A stretch of 64,000 bases of DNA from Gordonia sp. PDNC005. GTDB taxonomy: Bacteria > Actinomycetota > Actinomycetes > Mycobacteriales > Mycobacteriaceae. The stretch lies in assembly GCF_016919385.1 (NCBI RefSeq), contig NZ_CP070351.1:1054001-1118000 (forward strand). Reading direction: 5' to 3'. Positions 16,426-51,166 of this stretch are shown piece after piece. The notes under the pieces are model-generated. The model had not been told where the DNA came from. It saw nothing but the letters and a program-made list of their open reading frames with translations, and made no database searches. Made by a program: the position numbers and the translations under genes. Positions within the stretch are counted from its first letter, which is position 1, and each line of letters starts with the position of its first letter.

Positions 16426-17340
16426 TCAGAGGACGCCGCCTGCGGTGAGCGTGGCCACCAGGCGCGGGATCATGCGTCGGCTTTCGAGGTCTGCCCAATC
16501 CCAACGAACCACGATGATGCCGGCGTCGACCAAACGTGCGTGGCGACGCTTCTCTCGGCGTACCGCGTCGAGCGCGGTCTCTGCGCCGTCGAGGTAGTCC
16601 ACGTACTTGCCGTATCCGTCGAACTCGCCGATCACGACGCCACGCCAATCGAAGTCTGAGCGGCCGATGAATCGGCCGTCCTCGTCGTAGAAGCGATACT
16701 GAAGGCGAGGAGCAGGGAGACCCGCCTCGATCATCTGAGCACGACTCCACGACTCGCCGGGATTGGTGGATTCCGGGTCGGCGAGTTCCAGCGCCCGCCG
16801 CGCGATTCCCACGCCGGGGCGTGAGCGTTCAAGCAGGCCGCGCATCACCGTCGGCGATGCGCCGATCCGCAGTGCTGAATCGAAAGCGGTGAGCGCTCCG
16901 GCGAAGCCCTCCGATGTGGTGCATGCCGCGTCGACCGCGGTGAGCTCGAGGGACGTGACTGGGAGACCGTCGAGCACCACACGATGCTCGGCGGGAATCT
17001 CCGGGCGATGGGAGCTCAGGTGCCGACCGCGAACTCGGTTCTCGACGACCACGGCCACGCGGCGTCGATCCGGTTTGAGCAGAGGCAATCCGTGGACGAC
17101 CGCTGCAGTCTCGTGGCTGAGTATCGCAGTCGGATGAGCTCGTACGGCGGCACGTGCCCGAAGCAGATGTGTAGCCAGCGGTGTCCGCCTCGCCGCGGGG
17201 ACCAGAACACCGGGATCCAGACGTTCGAGGATACCCGCCTCCACAGCTCGCGAAAGCTGCATCGCAGAGCATCCGACATCCAGGGCACGGTCACGGTAGA
17301 CGATGCCGTACTCGTCCATGGGAAAACTATTCAGGTTCAT
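16426..17340 (-). CDS. AbiEi-type antitoxin-domain/DUF559-like protein
   Basis: About 304 residues. The N-terminus resembles an AbiEi-type winged-helix domain (ALDVGCSAMQLSRAVEAGIL...LDPGVLVPA). The C-terminus resembles a DUF559/Vsr-like PD-(D/E)XK fold (GRSDFDWRGVVIGEFDG then KRRHARLVDAGIIVVRWDW, with candidate Asp, Glu and Lys residues). Genes of this build are abundant in actinobacterial genomes, often without a recognisable toxin partner, and their role is not established. No partner gene lies beside it. In-frame starts at 17340 and 17319 are both possible; neither has a clear ribosome site. Related inverted-repeat elements bracket it, consistent with a later insertion into the rho-rpmE interval. 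Confidence 0.75.
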   Translation of the reverse strand: MNLNSFPMDEYGIVYRDRALDVGCSAMQLSRAVEAGILERLDPGVLVPAARRTPLATHLLRARAAVRAHPTAILSHETAAVVHGLPLLKPDRRRVAVVVENRVRGRHLSSHRPEIPAEHRVVLDGLPVTSLELTAVDAACTTSEGFAGALTAFDSALRIGASPTVMRGLLERSRPGVGIARRALELADPESTNPGESWSRAQMIEAGLPAPRLQYRFYDEDGRFIGRSDFDWRGVVIGEFDGYGKYVDYLDGAETALDAVRREKRRHARLVDAGIIVVRWDWADLESRRMIPRLVATLTAGGVL

Positions 17341-17401
17341 ACCCATTGGACGCACAGAACAATCAAGCGGTTCCGCACGAATTCCACAACCGTCACCCGA
17401 T

Positions 17402-17459
17402 GCCGCAGAAGTCACGCGGAGGGCGGGTACATACCGCACCCCGGCGCTACTTCTGCGGC
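17402..17459. repeat. Inverted repeat related to the post-rho hairpin
   Basis: GCCGCAGAAGT (17402-17412) and ACTTCTGCGGC (17449-17459) are perfect 11-base complements. The left arm continues into GTCACGCGG, giving near identity to the start of the post-rho element (TGCCGCAAAAGTCACGCGG at 16349-16367). It lies between the 3' end of the reductase gene and the start of the AbiEi-like gene. Confidence 0.7.
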
Positions 17460-19138: not shown

Positions 19139-20212
19139 GTGAGCATGCAGGGACCGTCCGCGATCGACGACATCCTGGCCGAGCACGCGGGCCTCGAGCA
19201 GCAGCTGTCCGATCCGGCACTCCACGACAACGCCGCCAACGCCCGCCGCGTCGGCAAGCGGTTCGCCGAACTCGCGCCGGTGATGGCGACCTACACGAAG
19301 CTCGCGTCCGTCCGTGACGATCTCGCCGCGGCCCGCGAACTCGCAGCGGACGACCCGGCGTTCGCCGAGGAGATCCCCGCTCTCGAAGAGAGCGAAGCCG
19401 AGCTCGACGCCCAGCTCACCGACCTGCTCGCGCCGCGCGACCCGCACGACTCCGACGACGTCGTCCTCGAAGTGAAGTCGGGTGCGGGAGGCGAGGAGTC
19501 CGCGCTGTTCGCCTCCGATCTCGTCCGCATGTACCTCAAGTACTGCGAGCGCCAGGGCTGGAAGGCGCTTGTACTCGGCGTCACCGAGTCGGACCTCGGC
19601 GGATACAAGGATGCGACCCTGTCGATCAAGGCACGCGAATCTGTGCGTGACGGCGTCTGGTCCAAGCTCAAATTCGAAGGCGGTGTGCACCGCGTGCAGC
19701 GTGTGCCGGTCACCGAGTCGCAGGGCCGCATCCACACGTCGGCCGCGGGGGTGCTGATCTACCCCGAGCCCGACGAGGTCGCCGAAGTGCAGATCGACGA
19801 GTCGGACCTGCGTGTCGACGTCTACCGAAGCTCCGGAAAGGGCGGCCAGGGCGTCAACACCACCGACTCCGCGGTCCGCCTCACCCACCTGCCGACCGGG
19901 GTTGTGGTCACCTGCCAGAACGAGCGCTCCCAGCTTCAGAACAAGGCGCGTGCAATGCAGGTGCTCGCGGCACGCCTTCAGGCGTTGGCCGAGGAAGAGG
20001 CCGCTGCCGAAGCGTCGGCGGGCCGCGCAGCACAGATCCGCACAGTCGACAGGTCCGAGCGGATCCGCACCTACAACTGGCCGGAGAACCGGATCACCGA
20101 TCACCGGATCGGTTACAAGGCGAACAACCTGGACGCAGTCTTGAACGGTGAGATGGACAGCCTGATCGGCGCCCTCGTCGACGCCGACAAGCAGGCACGA
20201 CTGCAGCAGTGA
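19139..20212 (+). CDS. prfA: Peptide chain release factor 1
   Basis: A 357-residue class I release factor reading UAA/UAG. The RF1-specific tripeptide region is [13 protein letters not shown] (PVT). The universal hydrolysis motif is [16 protein letters not shown], whose Gln is methylated by PrmC, the next gene. Starts at GTG 19139 or ATG 19145 are both plausible. The stop overlaps prmC by four bases. Confidence 0.96.
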
Positions 20213-21054
20213 CGTCGGCCGACGCACTGAGACGTCGCGCCGCCGCCGAGTTGACGGCGGTAGGCGTGGAGTCGGCGGCGCACGACGCTGCCGAGCTTCT
20301 CGCCCATGTGCTCGCCGTCGAGCCGGGGCGATTACTGCTGATCGACGACGTGGACGCAGAGGAGCAGGACCGCTTCGCCGAGGCGGTTCGACGCCGTGTG
20401 GGACGCGAACCGCTGCAGCACATCACCGGCACGGCGCACTTCGCGGGCCTCGAACTGTCAGTGGGGCCGGGAGTGTTCGTCCCGCGCCCAGAGACCGAAC
20501 TGATAGTCGAATGGGCCGCACGCGTGGTCGCAGGCCGCACGGCGGTGGTGGCGGACCTCTGCTCGGGCAGCGGTGCGCTTGCGCTCGGTATCGCAGTGCA
20601 CTCGCCGAACGCGCAGGTTGTCGCCGTTGAACGGTCGCCGGAAGCGCTCGGCTACCTGCGTCGCAACATCGCGGGCGCCGGGCTGGAGCGTCGAGTCACC
20701 GCAGTGCAGGCGGACGTCACCGACGCTGCGGCGATGAAGAATGCGCTCGGGGTGTGCGACGTCGTCGTCTCGAATCCGCCGTACGTCCCGTCGGCGTCGC
20801 CGGTGTCTCCAGAGGTCGCACACGACCCGTACGACGCGGTGTTCTCCGGGGACACGGGGATGGACGTCATTTCGGCGATGATCCCGATCGTCGCCGACAC
20901 ACTCGTCGGCGGGGGAGCGTTCGCCGTCGAACACGACGACGAGACGTCTGACGCCGTTGTCGCCGCGCTGCATGCCGACGGCCGATTCTCGTCAATCGAG
21001 GCCCACGCGGACCTCGCCGGGCGACAGCGTTTTGCGACGGCTTTCCGCACGTGA
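20209..21054 (+). CDS. prmC: Release factor glutamine methyltransferase
   Basis: A 281-residue SAM-dependent methyltransferase that modifies the GGQ glutamine of release factors. It has a helical N-terminal domain, [12 protein letters not shown] motif [17 protein letters not shown] and the glutamine-binding NPPY in [10 protein letters not shown]. It starts at GTG 20209 overlapping the prfA stop. In related genomes the Sua5 gene follows directly; here a lasso-peptide cluster intervenes, so the island begins within a few bases after this stop. Confidence 0.96.
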
Positions 21055-21158
21055 ACCTGAGTCGAAGGCTTGCCGCAGAACCTCCTCCAACTGCTCTTCA
21101 GTTCTAGCCTCTCGACCTCGCAACGACAAGCGATGAAGTTTCATGTTACGGTCGGAAT

Positions 21159-21178
21159 GAGTCATCGACCGATGACTC
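21159..21178. promoter_or_regulatory. Perfect inverted repeat upstream of the lasso precursor
   Basis: GAGTCATCG (21159-21167) and CGATGACTC (21170-21178) are perfect 9-base complements separated by AC, ending 22 bases before the precursor ATG. It could be a repressor operator or, if transcribed, a 5' UTR hairpin. No confident -35/-10 pair was found in the 21055-21200 interval. Confidence 0.6.
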
Positions 21179-21200
21179 GAAAATGGATCGAAAGGGTAGC

Positions 21201-21314
21201 ATGTACCAGTCGCCAACGCTCGTTGAAATCGGTAACTTCGAAGAGTTGACTCATGGCCTCCCGTGGGGCAGCTGGCATGATTCGTGGGGCAACAATTGGT
21301 ACCCGCACATCTAA
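21201..21314 (+). CDS. Lasso peptide precursor (A protein)
   Basis: A 37-residue peptide. Leader (residues 1-18) MYQSPTLVEIGNFEELTH fits the actinobacterial lasso leader pattern YxxPxLxxxGxxxxxTx exactly: Y2, P5, L7, G11, and T17 at position -2. The predicted core is GLPWGSWHDSWGNNWYPHI (19 residues): Gly1 can form a macrolactam with Asp9 and the tail threads the nine-residue ring. GLPWG and Asp9 are shared with BI-32169 as I recall it, but the disulfide Cys6/Cys19 are Ser6 and Ile19, making this a class II lasso. W15/Y16 are candidate plug residues. The ribosome site AAAGGG lies just upstream. Cyclase, leader-binding and protease genes follow on the same strand. Confidence 0.93.
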   Translation: MYQSPTLVEIGNFEELTHGLPWGSWHDSWGNNWYPHI

Positions 21315-21331
21315 GTAGGTAACGCTGGATC

Positions 21332-21376
21332 TGGTCTGGCTAGTAGCGGTGGGTGACTAGCCAGGCCAGGCCCTTT
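21332..21376 (+). terminator. Hairpin between lasso precursor and cyclase (probable attenuator)
   Basis: TGGTCTGGCTAG (21332-21343) and CTAGCCAGGCCA (21357-21368) form a 12-bp stem with one G-T pair and a 13-base loop, followed by GGCCCTTTCTT. It begins 17 bases after the precursor stop. Partial termination here would yield more precursor than enzyme mRNA, a common arrangement in RiPP clusters. Confidence 0.65.
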
Positions 21377-21473
21377 CTTGCAAGCTGGGGCCGCCCGCGA
21401 TGCGAAACTGAAACACCATCCGCGAACGATCCTGGCCGGGTTTGTTGGGCATCTTAAAGACGGCGGGGGATGA

Positions 21474-23138
21474 ATGAAAGCTGAGACTATATGGGTCGGG
21501 ATCGATCCATCTGACGATCTGGGTGAGGGGAGCGGCTGCCATCCAGCGATTCAGGAACTGGCTTCGTTGGAGATCGTGGGTGCTCCAGTAGGTCGAGGTG
21601 CACCTGGAGGGCCGTCTTCACTCATGGTTGATGCGAACTGCAGTCAAAAACTCTACTGGGCGAAGAGCGGCAGTGGATACGCCTATTCGCTGACTCAGGC
21701 CAGCCTTGCTCGTCTGACTAATCGAACGGTCGACAGGTCAAGTCTCCTGGCTTCCCTGTGTGGCGGCTTGCCATACTCGATGAGAAACAAGTCCGTGTGG
21801 GCGGGCGTAGGCACAATCTTTCCGGGGCAACTCTTTGATCCGTCGATGCCCGACGTCGGTGTGGAATTCATTGAGCCGGAGACTGTGTCTAACGACTATG
21901 ACCGCAAAGCCGTCACGAGCCGTCTGCGCGCCGCACTTGAATCTGCTACTGCGCGTCCATCGTTGCAAGGGCGGGCCGCGGGGTGTGACCTCTCCGGTGG
22001 GCTTGATTCGACCTCAATAGCGTATCTCCTCGACAGGCAAGGAATCGAACTTTCGCTCGCACACGATGTGTGCCCAGATCCGCGAAACGATGACTATGAG
22101 TATGCGCGTATTGCGGCCAATGATCTTGGCAGACCGATCGACCAGTTGGGTGATACAAGGACGGACCGAGATGCGTTCGACGCAGTCTTTGGGGGCAACC
22201 CGGCAGGTCTGGACGAGGCTATTCCGACCTGGATCGGGTTCGGAGGGCGGGCGACGAGATATTCTATGTATGCGCGTGCCTCAGGATACTCAGACCATTT
22301 TATCGGTCTTGGAAGTGATGACCTGTTCTCCGGACATTTCTCCGCTGTTGCGGAGATTGCTAGATCGTCTCGAGTTCCTGAAGCCAAACGTGCGTTGGAG
22401 CGGTATCGAATAGCTGCGCGTGCGTCGAAGAGGGAACTCCGGAAGTTCCTGTCTTCCGAAGTCTCGTACAGTGATTCATTGCGAGCGGCCGTTTCCGACT
22501 TGCGCAACGGGGTCGATGCGGACATTCGGATTTCTAGCATCCTCGGTTGGTGTCCGGGATTGCGGGTCAATAGCGTGTTATCGGCAGAAGCGACAACCAA
22601 GGTCTTCGAAGAGATTGATCTTGCGGCGAGAACAACTGCACCTCTCGATGTGCGTGCAAATGTCCACGTGATGAAAGCATGTCTCTTGACGCAGGCTGAT
22701 CTCGTTCGGTCTTTGAATGCCACATTCGGGTCCGAGGGCTTTAGATTCAACGCGCCGTTTCTCGACTCCGGGTTGGTGGAACTGGTTGCCGGCCTTCCGT
22801 CCATCGCCTTTCTTGGATCTGACACTTCGAAGCCCTTACTGGTTGATGCAATGGAGGGAATTCTTCCTGAGTCAATCCGACTTCGGCGGTCTAAGCCCGA
22901 TTTCAATCAGGATGTGTTCACGGATTTTCAGAGGAATCGCGAACGACTTCGAACGGAGTTCCGGGCGAGCATCCTAGGGCAGATGGGAATTATCGACGTT
23001 GATAAGGTTTGTGAGATCATAGATAATGATTTCGTCACAATCCGTCAAATAGACGATATACTCGCCGCCTACAATACCGAGAAGTGGCTGAGAAATATTG
23101 ATGACGGTTGGGTTTTCGACGGAGATGGACTTGCATAA
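21474..23138 (+). CDS. Lasso peptide macrolactam synthetase (asparagine synthetase-like, C protein)
   Basis: A 554-residue ATP-dependent cyclase expected to adenylate Asp9 of the core and join it to Gly1. The PP-loop SGGLDS is at residues 174-179 (CDLSGGLDSTSIAYLL). A DD-containing segment (IGLGSDDLFSGH) and a C-terminal RFNAPFLDSGLVELV followed by KPDFNQDVF match asparagine synthetase C domains. The N-terminal ~150 residues correspond to a degenerate glutaminase domain with no N-terminal Cys. The start is fixed: an in-frame TGA directly precedes ATG 21474. The protein is somewhat shorter than many lasso cyclases (~600). The gene is visibly AT-richer than its housekeeping neighbours. Its stop and the next start share one base (TAATG). 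Confidence 0.92.
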   Translation: MKAETIWVGIDPSDDLGEGSGCHPAIQELASLEIVGAPVGRGAPGGPSSLMVDANCSQKLYWAKSGSGYAYSLTQASLARLTNRTVDRSSLLASLCGGLPYSMRNKSVWAGVGTIFPGQLFDPSMPDVGVEFIEPETVSNDYDRKAVTSRLRAALESATARPSLQGRAAGCDLSGGLDSTSIAYLLDRQGIELSLAHDVCPDPRNDDYEYARIAANDLGRPIDQLGDTRTDRDAFDAVFGGNPAGLDEAIPTWIGFGGRATRYSMYARASGYSDHFIGLGSDDLFSGHFSAVAEIARSSRVPEAKRALERYRIAARASKRELRKFLSSEVSYSDSLRAAVSDLRNGVDADIRISSILGWCPGLRVNSVLSAEATTKVFEEIDLAARTTAPLDVRANVHVMKACLLTQADLVRSLNATFGSEGFRFNAPFLDSGLVELVAGLPSIAFLGSDTSKPLLVDAMEGILPESIRLRRSKPDFNQDVFTDFQRNRERLRTEFRASILGQMGIIDVDKVCEIIDNDFVTIRQIDDILAAYNTEKWLRNIDDGWVFDGDGLA

Positions 23139-23422
23139 TGGTTACGAAGTATCGACTTAGGAACGATGTTCAAGAGTGGAATGGGGAGGGCGATTCAGTC
23201 ATTTTATTTTCGCCTTCGAGCTCGAAGTACTTTGGCACAAATAAGGCTGGAATCTGTCTAGCACGGAGGATGTCAGATTGGTGCCGAGTCGAAGATCTTG
23301 CTGACGTGCTCGAAGCGGAGTATGGCGTAGAGTACTCTACCGCGATAAGCGATTCAAGTAGCTTTCTGAAGTTGATTTTGGCCGCGGGAATTGCGCAGAA
23401 GCGGAATTGGATTTGGCGTTGA
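23138..23422 (+). CDS. Lasso leader-recognition protein (PqqD-like RRE, B1)
   Basis: A 94-residue PqqD-family protein, typical length for the stand-alone RiPP recognition element that binds the precursor leader (the YxxPxL part). Seen are an N-terminal beta-hairpin region (SVILFSPSSSKYFGTNKAGI), a helical centre (VEDLADVLEAEYGV) and a C-terminal helix (SSFLKLILAAGIAQ). The ATG overlaps the cyclase stop by one base, so the two are co-translated. A longer in-frame start upstream would lie inside the cyclase gene and is not needed. Confidence 0.88.
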   Translation: MVTKYRLRNDVQEWNGEGDSVILFSPSSSKYFGTNKAGICLARRMSDWCRVEDLADVLEAEYGVEYSTAISDSSSFLKLILAAGIAQKRNWIWR

Positions 23423-23464
23423 GTTCGCCTGGCGAGGGCATAGCGGCCGATTTCGAGAGGTGAA

Positions 23465-23851
23465 ATGTATACTAGATTCATTGTAGCGGTTGCGGATTTG
23501 GTTTCTAGGCGATCGTTTCGCGTGCAGAAGGCGTTTCTGTCTGTACTGCGGACCGTTCACCGGGTCAATCCAATGGGCTTATCGAGCGCGGAGGAATTTC
23601 GCTGGCTCGCTGACTGCCGTGAGAACTTGTGTGTTCTTGACCCACGTTGCGCCGCAGTTCAAGGTTGTCTGACTCGTTCGCTATCTATTGCCATCGCGGC
23701 CACGTTCCGTGGAGTAAATTTTGCATGGGTCACGGGATTTAGTCCGTCACCATTCTATGGCCATGCTTGGATTGAGCATGATGGATCTCCAGTCGGAGAG
23801 TCGCTGGATGTAGGAGAATTCAACCGAGTAGCCGTGGTGAAATTCGCTTGA
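23465..23851 (+). CDS. Lasso leader peptidase (transglutaminase-like, B2)
   Basis: A 128-residue cysteine protease that should remove the 18-residue leader. The family signature is visible: catalytic Cys68 in QGCLTRSLS and His100 in YGHAWIEHDG, with Asp106 the likely third residue. It matches the C-terminal half of McjB; with the separate PqqD-like gene upstream it forms the split B1/B2 arrangement usual in actinobacteria. GAGAGGTG precedes the ATG. It is the last gene of the cluster; no ABC transporter or isopeptidase follows. Confidence 0.9.
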   Translation: MYTRFIVAVADLVSRRSFRVQKAFLSVLRTVHRVNPMGLSSAEEFRWLADCRENLCVLDPRCAAVQGCLTRSLSIAIAATFRGVNFAWVTGFSPSPFYGHAWIEHDGSPVGESLDVGEFNRVAVVKFA

Positions 23852-23943
23852 CGTAGGACCAGGTCGGCCCGGCATGGCGTTGCCAAACGAGTGATGACGA
23901 TGTGGTGGCGCGTCGGGTCGGTGACACGTGCAAGGATGGAACA

Positions 23944-24603
23944 GTGAGTGTCGTCTTCGATTGCAGTGACCCGTCCGAGCGTTCCGCAGGCTTGAGCGCC
24001 GCGGTCGGAGCAGCCCGCGGCGGCCGCCTCGTGGTGCTGCCGACCGACACCCTGTACGGCATCGGCTGCGACGCATTCGACAGTGAAGCGGTCTCGTCTC
24101 TGCTCGCCGCCAAGAACCGCGGCCGGGACATGCCGGTGCCGGTTCTCGTCGGCTCCTGGCAGACCGTCGACGGACTGGTCCGTTCGGTGTCGCCGCAGGC
24201 CAGGGAGCTCGTCCAGTCGTTCTGGCCGGGTGGTCTCAGCCTTGTCGTGGAACAGGCACCGTCGCTCGCATGGGATCTCGGAGACACCGATGCGACTGTG
24301 ATGATCCGCATGCCGTTGCATCCAGTGGCGATCGAACTGCTCCGAGAAGTCGGCCCGATGGCGGTCTCGAGCGCCAACGTCTCCGGTCAGCCGCCCGCCA
24401 CCACCGTCGGCGCCGCGCAGGAAATGCTCGGCGACCTGGTGTCGGTGTATCTCGACGGTGGGCCCGCGGCGAAGGCCGTCGCGTCGACGATCGTCGACCT
24501 GAGCGGAGTCACCCCGCGCATTCTCCGGGAAGGCGCGATCAGCGCCGAGGAGATCGGCGAGGTCCTCGACATGGATCCCGACGAGCTGAGGACGCGTCCG
24601 TGA
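23944..24603 (+). CDS. L-threonylcarbamoyladenylate synthase (Sua5/YwlC/TsaC family)
   Basis: A 219-residue YrdC/Sua5-domain protein that makes threonylcarbamoyl-AMP for t6A37 in ANN-decoding tRNAs. Motifs include GGRLVVLPTDTLYGIGCDA, KNRGRDMPVPVLV, the S/T-x-R region ATVMIRMPLHP and VSSANVSGQPPATT. The short length indicates a stand-alone synthetase domain without the full Sua5 linker domain. GTG 23944 follows AAGGATGGAA. The stop overlaps the SHMT-like start by 4 bases (GTGA). It is displaced from prmC by the lasso cluster. Confidence 0.93.
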   Translation: MSVVFDCSDPSERSAGLSAAVGAARGGRLVVLPTDTLYGIGCDAFDSEAVSSLLAAKNRGRDMPVPVLVGSWQTVDGLVRSVSPQARELVQSFWPGGLSLVVEQAPSLAWDLGDTDATVMIRMPLHPVAIELLREVGPMAVSSANVSGQPPATTVGAAQEMLGDLVSVYLDGGPAAKAVASTIVDLSGVTPRILREGAISAEEIGEVLDMDPDELRTRP

Positions 24604-45830: not shown

Positions 45831-50934
<5,104 letters not shown>

Positions 50935-51046
50935 AACACTCACACACATTTTGTTTGATGTCTGTGATGGTCGCATCCACTATCTACTTCTGAAACAACA
51001 CACGATCACGACCGTTTAGGTTTGTGGTTGGTGATAGTTTCATATT

Positions 51047-51166
51047 GTTTCGGTGGCTATAGCGGAGGGGAAACGCCCGGCCCCATTCCGAACCCGGAAG
51101 CTAAGCCCTCCAGCGCCGATGGTACTGCACTTTAGTCAGTGTGGGAGAGTAGGACACCGCCGAACT
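51047..51166 (+). rRNA. rrf: 5S ribosomal RNA
   Basis: Contains GTTTCGGTGGC...GGGAAACGCCCGGCCCCAT, CCGAACCCGGAAGCTAAG, CAGCGCCGATGGTACTG and the closing GGACACCGCCGAAC, which pair to form the 5S terminal stem. Ends are approximate to a few bases. Confidence 0.95.

Follow-up and report, generated by a model that had tools for sequence, protein, structure and literature searches.

A probable horizontally acquired lasso-peptide gene cluster with a BI-32169-like predicted core in Gordonia sp. PDNC005

Does a reading frame of 37 codons, lying between two housekeeping genes of Gordonia sp. PDNC005, specify a lasso peptide, and if so, which genes would process it and how did the locus come to be where it is? 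The stretch of DNA analysed, hereafter the window, comprises 64,000 nucleotides (nt) of contig NZ_CP070351.1 (positions 1,054,001 to 1,118,000, forward strand), and coordinates are those of the window unless otherwise indicated. An original prediction, made by reading the letters, had described four lasso-peptide genes at one site, and all four are found there with intact reading frames, on the forward strand at 21201–23851, in the order precursor (A), cyclase (C), leader-binding protein (B1) and leader peptidase (B2). The locus is very likely a horizontally acquired lasso-peptide cluster of the arrangement A-C-B1-B2 to which no exporter gene is adjacent. The genes, the families to which they belong, the conservation of their catalytic residues and the absence of the cluster from the site in relatives are direct observations, and the cluster is real and intact and probably working. 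The 4.26-Mb genome contains a single match to B2 and a single lasso leader above the cut-off, and the two are adjacent to each other.

The precursor gene (21201–21314, forward strand) encodes 37 residues followed by a stop codon, and the lasso leader that had been recognized in it by eye is detected by the model NF033521 (lasso_leader_L3) at 30.4 bits, with a cut-off of 19 and an E value of 2.5e-7. The sole other match of this model in the genome scores 11.2 bits, below the cut-off; among 14 control genomes seven yield a match of any kind and none yields one above the cut-off. An alternative in-frame ATG at 21183 would give a protein of 43 residues, and the ATG at 21201 is directly preceded by the sequence AAAGGG (21191–21196). 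The leader, MYQSPTLVEIGNFEELTH (21201–21254, forward strand), has the layout YxxPxL...GxF....T that characterizes leaders of the chaxapeptin and lariatin families, and it meets the core at the junction ELTH/G, which places its penultimate residue, threonine, at position -2. The predicted core, GLPWGSWHDSWGNNWYPHI (21255–21311, forward strand), was assigned from its sequence, its mass and its likeness to the lasso peptide BI-32169. It lacks cysteine, begins with Gly1 and has Asp9 within positions 7 to 9, where the Asp or Glu that closes a lasso ring is expected. The predicted ring therefore runs from Gly1 to Asp9 and is followed by a ten-residue tail, and its size of nine residues is unambiguous because the core has no acidic residue besides Asp9. 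Recomputation gives 2308.024 Da for the linear core, 2290.013 Da for the cyclised core and 1146.014 for [M+2H]2+, in agreement with the hand-calculated values of about 2308.02, 2290.01 and 1146.01. The lasso assignment of the cluster is supported as a prediction, as are the site of leader cleavage, the ring from Gly1 to Asp9 and the masses. Two contigs in the protein collection encode exactly this precursor, the longest being that of 4.26 Mb.

The three genes downstream match families expected of lasso-processing proteins, and here too the original prediction was borne out. Gene C (21474–23138, forward strand) encodes an asparagine-synthetase-like cyclase of 554 residues that scores 92.4 bits, over the cut-off, with PF00733; its adenosine triphosphate (ATP) motif SGGLDS is intact at residues 174–179, and G176, D178, S179, D282, R471 and K474 are identical in all 19 aligned rows. 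The stop codon of C and the start codon of B1 share one base. B1 (23138–23422, forward strand) encodes a PqqD-like leader binder (the B1 or RiPP recognition element component, RiPP standing for ribosomally synthesized and post-translationally modified peptide) of 94 residues, with a PF05402 score of 32.5 bits and a cut-off of 23.4. B2 (23465–23851, forward strand) encodes a transglutaminase-like leader peptidase of 128 residues, matching PF13471 at 49.7 bits (cut-off 26) and NF033537 at 57 bits (cut-off 33). The catalytic pair named for it, Cys68 and His100, stands in columns that are conserved in all eight aligned B2 proteins, the window's included. A lasso B2 occurs in three of the 59 genomes of the genus, the other two carriers being G009 (locus L056) and G050 (L003/L055). 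In G050 the B2 gene lies on a 3.3-kb contig, and the cyclase frame starts at the contig edge, so that any precursor upstream of it would be missing.

Judged by its sequence, the cyclase is the oddest part of the cluster. Its best NCBIfam match is NF033561, the albusnodin/ikarugamycin family macrolactam cyclase, at 136.8 bits and under the cut-off of 300. The closest relative is a Gordonia malaquae protein (P0001) with 95% identity over 429 residues; one further relative shows 33% identity, but across 20% of the protein. Cyclase matches at E values up to 1e-10 are present in two of the 59 genomes of the genus, namely the window's own and G050, whose protein is 24% identical. In a tree of 19 rows the window cyclase pairs with that of G. 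malaquae on a branch of 2.2 changes per site; only four of the 16 inner branches are well supported, and the placement of this pair next to a Streptococcus row, itself on a long branch, carries an unsafe flag. One of the searches for cyclase relatives scored just the 8000 candidates with the most words in common, and a scan of genome contigs with the cyclase gave 19 stretches, none of which was confirmed.

Very many new lasso cores have already been obtained through genome mining, and the molecule that the cluster would make is most probably a new one, of a well-known class rather than of a novel type of system. The earlier statement that the core matches no known lasso core holds for identity, in that neither GLPWGSWHDSWGNNWYPHI nor two fragments of it were found in the literature searched, and the available passages that mention lasso peptides together with Gordonia do not concern a Gordonia lasso peptide. 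It does not hold for likeness, where BI-32169 comes close. This peptide of Streptomyces sp. DSM 14996 is described as a class III lasso peptide and glucagon receptor antagonist of solved structure, PDB 3NJW (PMC7549694), and its core is GLPWGCPSDIPGWNTPWAC in Table 1 of PMC12427821. Both cores have 19 residues, Gly1 and Asp9 and a GLPWG start, and 8 of 19 positions are identical (GLPWG, Asp9, Gly12 and Asn14); BI-32169 is the best match by this measure, the other 61 of the 62 cores in the table having at most five identical positions. The two cysteines that form its disulfide, Cys6 and Cys19, are Ser6 and Ile19 in the window core, and the tail is mostly different. A disulfide joining ring and tail, as in class III peptides of the BI-32169 type, has no basis in a core without cysteine, and the predicted product is assigned to the disulfide-free class II because both cysteines of BI-32169 are replaced. 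Local alignment, which covered 49 of the 62 rows (positional identity covered all 62), gave a score of 53 for cattlecin (z-score 2.1 relative to shuffles), 45 for BI-32169 (3.5) and 24 for chaxapeptin (3.5). Cattlecin was rejected as the closest core, with only four identical positions and a z-score of 2.1 despite its top score, which is ascribed to its tryptophan content.

The ring type is found beyond these two peptides. A contig collection described as representing 84,980 species by a single genome each was scanned with the pattern G.F...T.GxPWG...[DE], and four of the seven stretches returned carry a lasso leader over the cut-off. They are precursors from Streptomyces uncialis (GTPWGCPNDLVGWNTPFAC, a clear analogue of BI-32169), Actinophytocola oryzae (GLPWGGNIDNFNANTPIWG, with a cysteine-free GLPWG core), S. 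tricolor (GWPWGDRYDGGLPPYWRFPYGG) and S. iconiensis (GPPWGYRRDWHGHSRHFH; locus L049, 1904–2071), and all have G1, P3, W4, G5 and D9 as in the window core. The GxPWG ring thus recurs, the window core being one further example, and the BI-32169-like ring of the latter may be either inherited or convergent. A matching cyclase, 26–27% identical to that of the window, lies beside the precursors of A. oryzae, S. tricolor and S. uncialis, and the A. oryzae and S. uncialis cyclases group together with weak support (80/93), apart from the window's. For S. iconiensis, searches of 8 kb by similarity and by motif revealed neither a cyclase nor a B2. The other three stretches (L048, L052 and L054) are without a C, B1 or B2 match and were put down to chance, L048 having no NCBIfam match and L052 and L054 being judged by eye from the frame.

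Among 397 genomes of the order, six have a match to the GxPWG pattern, the window's included. The other five were likewise set aside as chance, their frames having no NCBIfam match and no C, B1 or B2 within 3 kb. In three genomes of one other genus of the order (L034, L035 and L036) a GLPWGHPVD reading occurs near 1501 inside a longer frame, with no match to a lasso leader, C, B1 or B2; it is probably a chance occurrence in a conserved stretch. A keywimysin-related precursor on a plasmid of Streptomyces sp. NBC_00048 (L044, 3504–3623) ends in GLPVGSWDWNHRGGWF and has GLPxGSW in common with the window core.

The surroundings of the cluster bear on how it was acquired. A foreign-looking block of about 2.9 kb, with approximate edges at 21055 and 23927, is delimited by an alignment break with the nearest relative (G024), by GC content and by an empty site in relatives. 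On its left lies prmC, a housekeeping gene for a release factor methyltransferase (20209–21054, forward strand; TIGR03534 219.7 bits, cut-off 199.1), and on its right a Sua5/TsaC-type gene (23944–24603, forward strand; TIGR00057 196.2 bits, cut-off 123.2). The likely start of the latter is the GTG at 23944, and its sequence is shared with four relatives from GTGCAAGGATGGAAC onward. DNA alignment to G024 is interrupted from 21049 to 23927, an interval in place of which the relative has 50 bp. The insert has a GC content of 0.541 and its two neighbours 0.693 and 0.682, and GC at third codon positions (GC3) is 0.48–0.56 in C, B1 and B2 and 0.71 in the short A gene, compared with 0.80–0.82 in neighbouring genes. 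At none of the 29 other loci compared in the genus (58 other genomes) is there a match to C, B1 or B2 near prmC, and at all 29 a Sua5 match lies downstream of prmC within the 1.5 kb compared; at L032 the two genes are about 1 kb apart, with other sequence in between. The cluster is an example of lasso genes cleanly placed between two conserved housekeeping genes.

A recombination tract at the site had been suggested by protein identity to G024 (99% for Sua5 and for serine hydroxymethyltransferase, 87% for prmC), and was dropped because both flanks are 91–92% identical to G024 as DNA. Origin from a mobile element was also considered and rejected, the insert having no match in plasmid DNA and no nearby transfer RNA gene (the only one in the window is at 901), with family searches of its open reading frames (ORFs) covering the four cluster genes.

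Several observations weigh against a working, horizontally acquired lasso cluster. The cyclase and B1 fall under every lasso-specific NCBIfam cut-off and pass only those of Pfam, and, the G. malaquae protein excepted, the cyclase relatives found do not exceed about 30% identity when most of the length is compared. P0001 begins at residue 125 of the window cyclase, either because its start was called differently or because the protein is truly truncated. A search for B2 relatives gave nothing besides the window's own protein. No sigma-70-like promoter match was found upstream of A. No exporter was found beside the cluster in a search made with PF00664 only, other exporter types and immunity genes not being covered; of the 14 PF00664 matches in the genome the nearest two are at distances of about 31 and 71 kb (genome coordinates 1043824–1044615 and 1148374–1149159). 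The gene directly after B2 is Sua5, so that the exporter position of a lariatin-type five-gene cluster is not filled by an exporter.

Such features would suit a cluster that is silent or in decay, left over from a transfer and yielding no product. The low GC of the insert and the low GC3 of C, B1 and B2 relative to the host point in the same direction as the absence of an adjacent exporter and of a promoter match, and so does the rarity of the cyclase in the genus, where the second copy is so divergent. This is nonetheless unlikely, for all four frames are intact, the catalytic residues are kept, the stop of C overlaps the start of B1, and a 95% identical cyclase has been retained in G. malaquae. 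Still less probable is that the enzymes turn the precursor into a different macrocyclic but unthreaded RiPP, a branched-cyclic peptide, by means of a cyclase remote from the characterized lasso cyclases compared. The long branch that the cyclase occupies with one close relative, and its scores under the lasso cyclase cut-offs, would agree with such an outcome, but the leader and B2 exceed lasso-specific cut-offs, the core suits a lasso fold in its length, Gly1, Asp9 and bulky tail, and it resembles BI-32169, whose lasso structure is reported as solved. Practically no weight can be given to the precursor being a chance ORF beside unrelated genes. The gene is just 37 codons long, but its leader match (E value 2.5e-7) is the only one above the cut-off in the genome and lies directly upstream of C, B1 and B2.

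An acquired and functional lasso cluster remains the preferred reading, and a more specific version of it may be entertained tentatively. The cluster could represent a separate, uncharacterized lineage of lasso synthetases, seen to date only here and in G. malaquae, that reached the GxPWG ring independently and holds it without a disulfide, perhaps with release that calls for no dedicated exporter; this is possible but doubtful. A natural cysteine-free relative of BI-32169 would be a counterpart against which to test what the disulfide contributes to stability and to receptor binding, and so divergent a lasso cyclase would be useful in mapping the tolerance of the cyclase fold.

In lasso-peptide biosynthesis, leader binding by B1 is followed by cleavage by B2 and by ring closure by the cyclase. 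The leader is held tightly by B1 and handed to B2 for removal, and the cyclase closes the ring (PMC5067487). We infer that B1 of the window would bind the YxxPxL..GxF leader and deliver the precursor to B2, which would cleave between His18 and Gly19 by means of Cys68 and His100. The cyclase would then activate the side chain of Asp9 with ATP and link it to the newly formed amine of Gly1 while the tail is threaded. The expected product is a disulfide-free class II lasso peptide of 19 residues with a BI-32169-type GLPWG...D ring and a neutral mass of 2290.01 Da, in which the large residues Trp15, Tyr16 and His18 would likely serve as plugs. It may act as a narrow-spectrum antibacterial or as a signal.

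The gap between A and C contains a hairpin whose outer stem has 14 bp (21331–21369, forward strand; -27.4 kcal/mol). Its stability is reached by 7 of 18276 segments of 39 nt sampled on both strands of the window, some of which may overlap the hairpin itself. An intrinsic terminator was rejected on several grounds. The terminator scan did not call the hairpin, the T tail is weak, the whole gap between A and C is not more stable than shuffled sequences (z-score -0.68), and in two plasmid clusters of lariatin type (L041 and L042) the A-C stretches that were examined form stems of only -15 kcal/mol. No Rfam match at an E value up to 1 was found in 20000–24500. The hairpin could possibly be an attenuator or partial terminator, and it is plausible that it would act as a brake by which the output of precursor exceeds that of the enzymes.

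The gene order had been equated with that of the lariatin cluster. This is correct for the succession A-C-B1-B2, but the fifth lariatin gene, the exporter larE, is without a counterpart here. Lariatin (larABCDE, Rhodococcus jostii) is described as encoded by five genes, of which the last is the exporter and one is a separate B1-like gene (PMC4960549). A lariatin-family plasmid cluster of Rhodococcus sp. WB1 has the same order A-C-B1-B2 as the window, and two Rhodococcus plasmid clusters retain an ATP-binding cassette (ABC) exporter after B2, whereas the window cluster does not. The lariatin cyclase is about 27% identical to that of the window, and the lariatin core has Glu8. On the S. leeuwenhoekii plasmid pSLE2 a chaxapeptin-family cluster is likewise arranged A-C-B1-B2, with no exporter annotated alongside in plasmid gene tables that are incomplete; its core has 15 residues with Asp8, and its cyclase is 29.6% identical to that of the window. 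The chaxapeptin cluster, rather than that of lariatin, is the closer match in layout.

A different layout was seen by eye in an unverified record of Enterococcus phage Efs 1-1-1 (OR846608.1; L059, 3410–8067). This lasso-like cluster comprises a precursor with the likely core GLWTGKFRDVFGGRALFQVVIYY, a cyclase, a PqqD-like protein and a protein of 763 residues in which a B2 domain and an ABC exporter are seemingly joined. The Streptococcus salivarius plasmid pSsal-YU10 (L043) carries a precursor similar to that of L059 and a long gene annotated as B2, and the phage label of L059 may reflect host DNA within the assembly.

Elsewhere in the window, a second dip in GC content was considered as another island and rejected, as 45831–51165 is a complete 16S-23S-5S rRNA operon. 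The segment 16366–17475, which contains a reverse-strand ORF of 337 residues (16426–17439), is 69% identical to G024, with 90–91% identity on its two sides.

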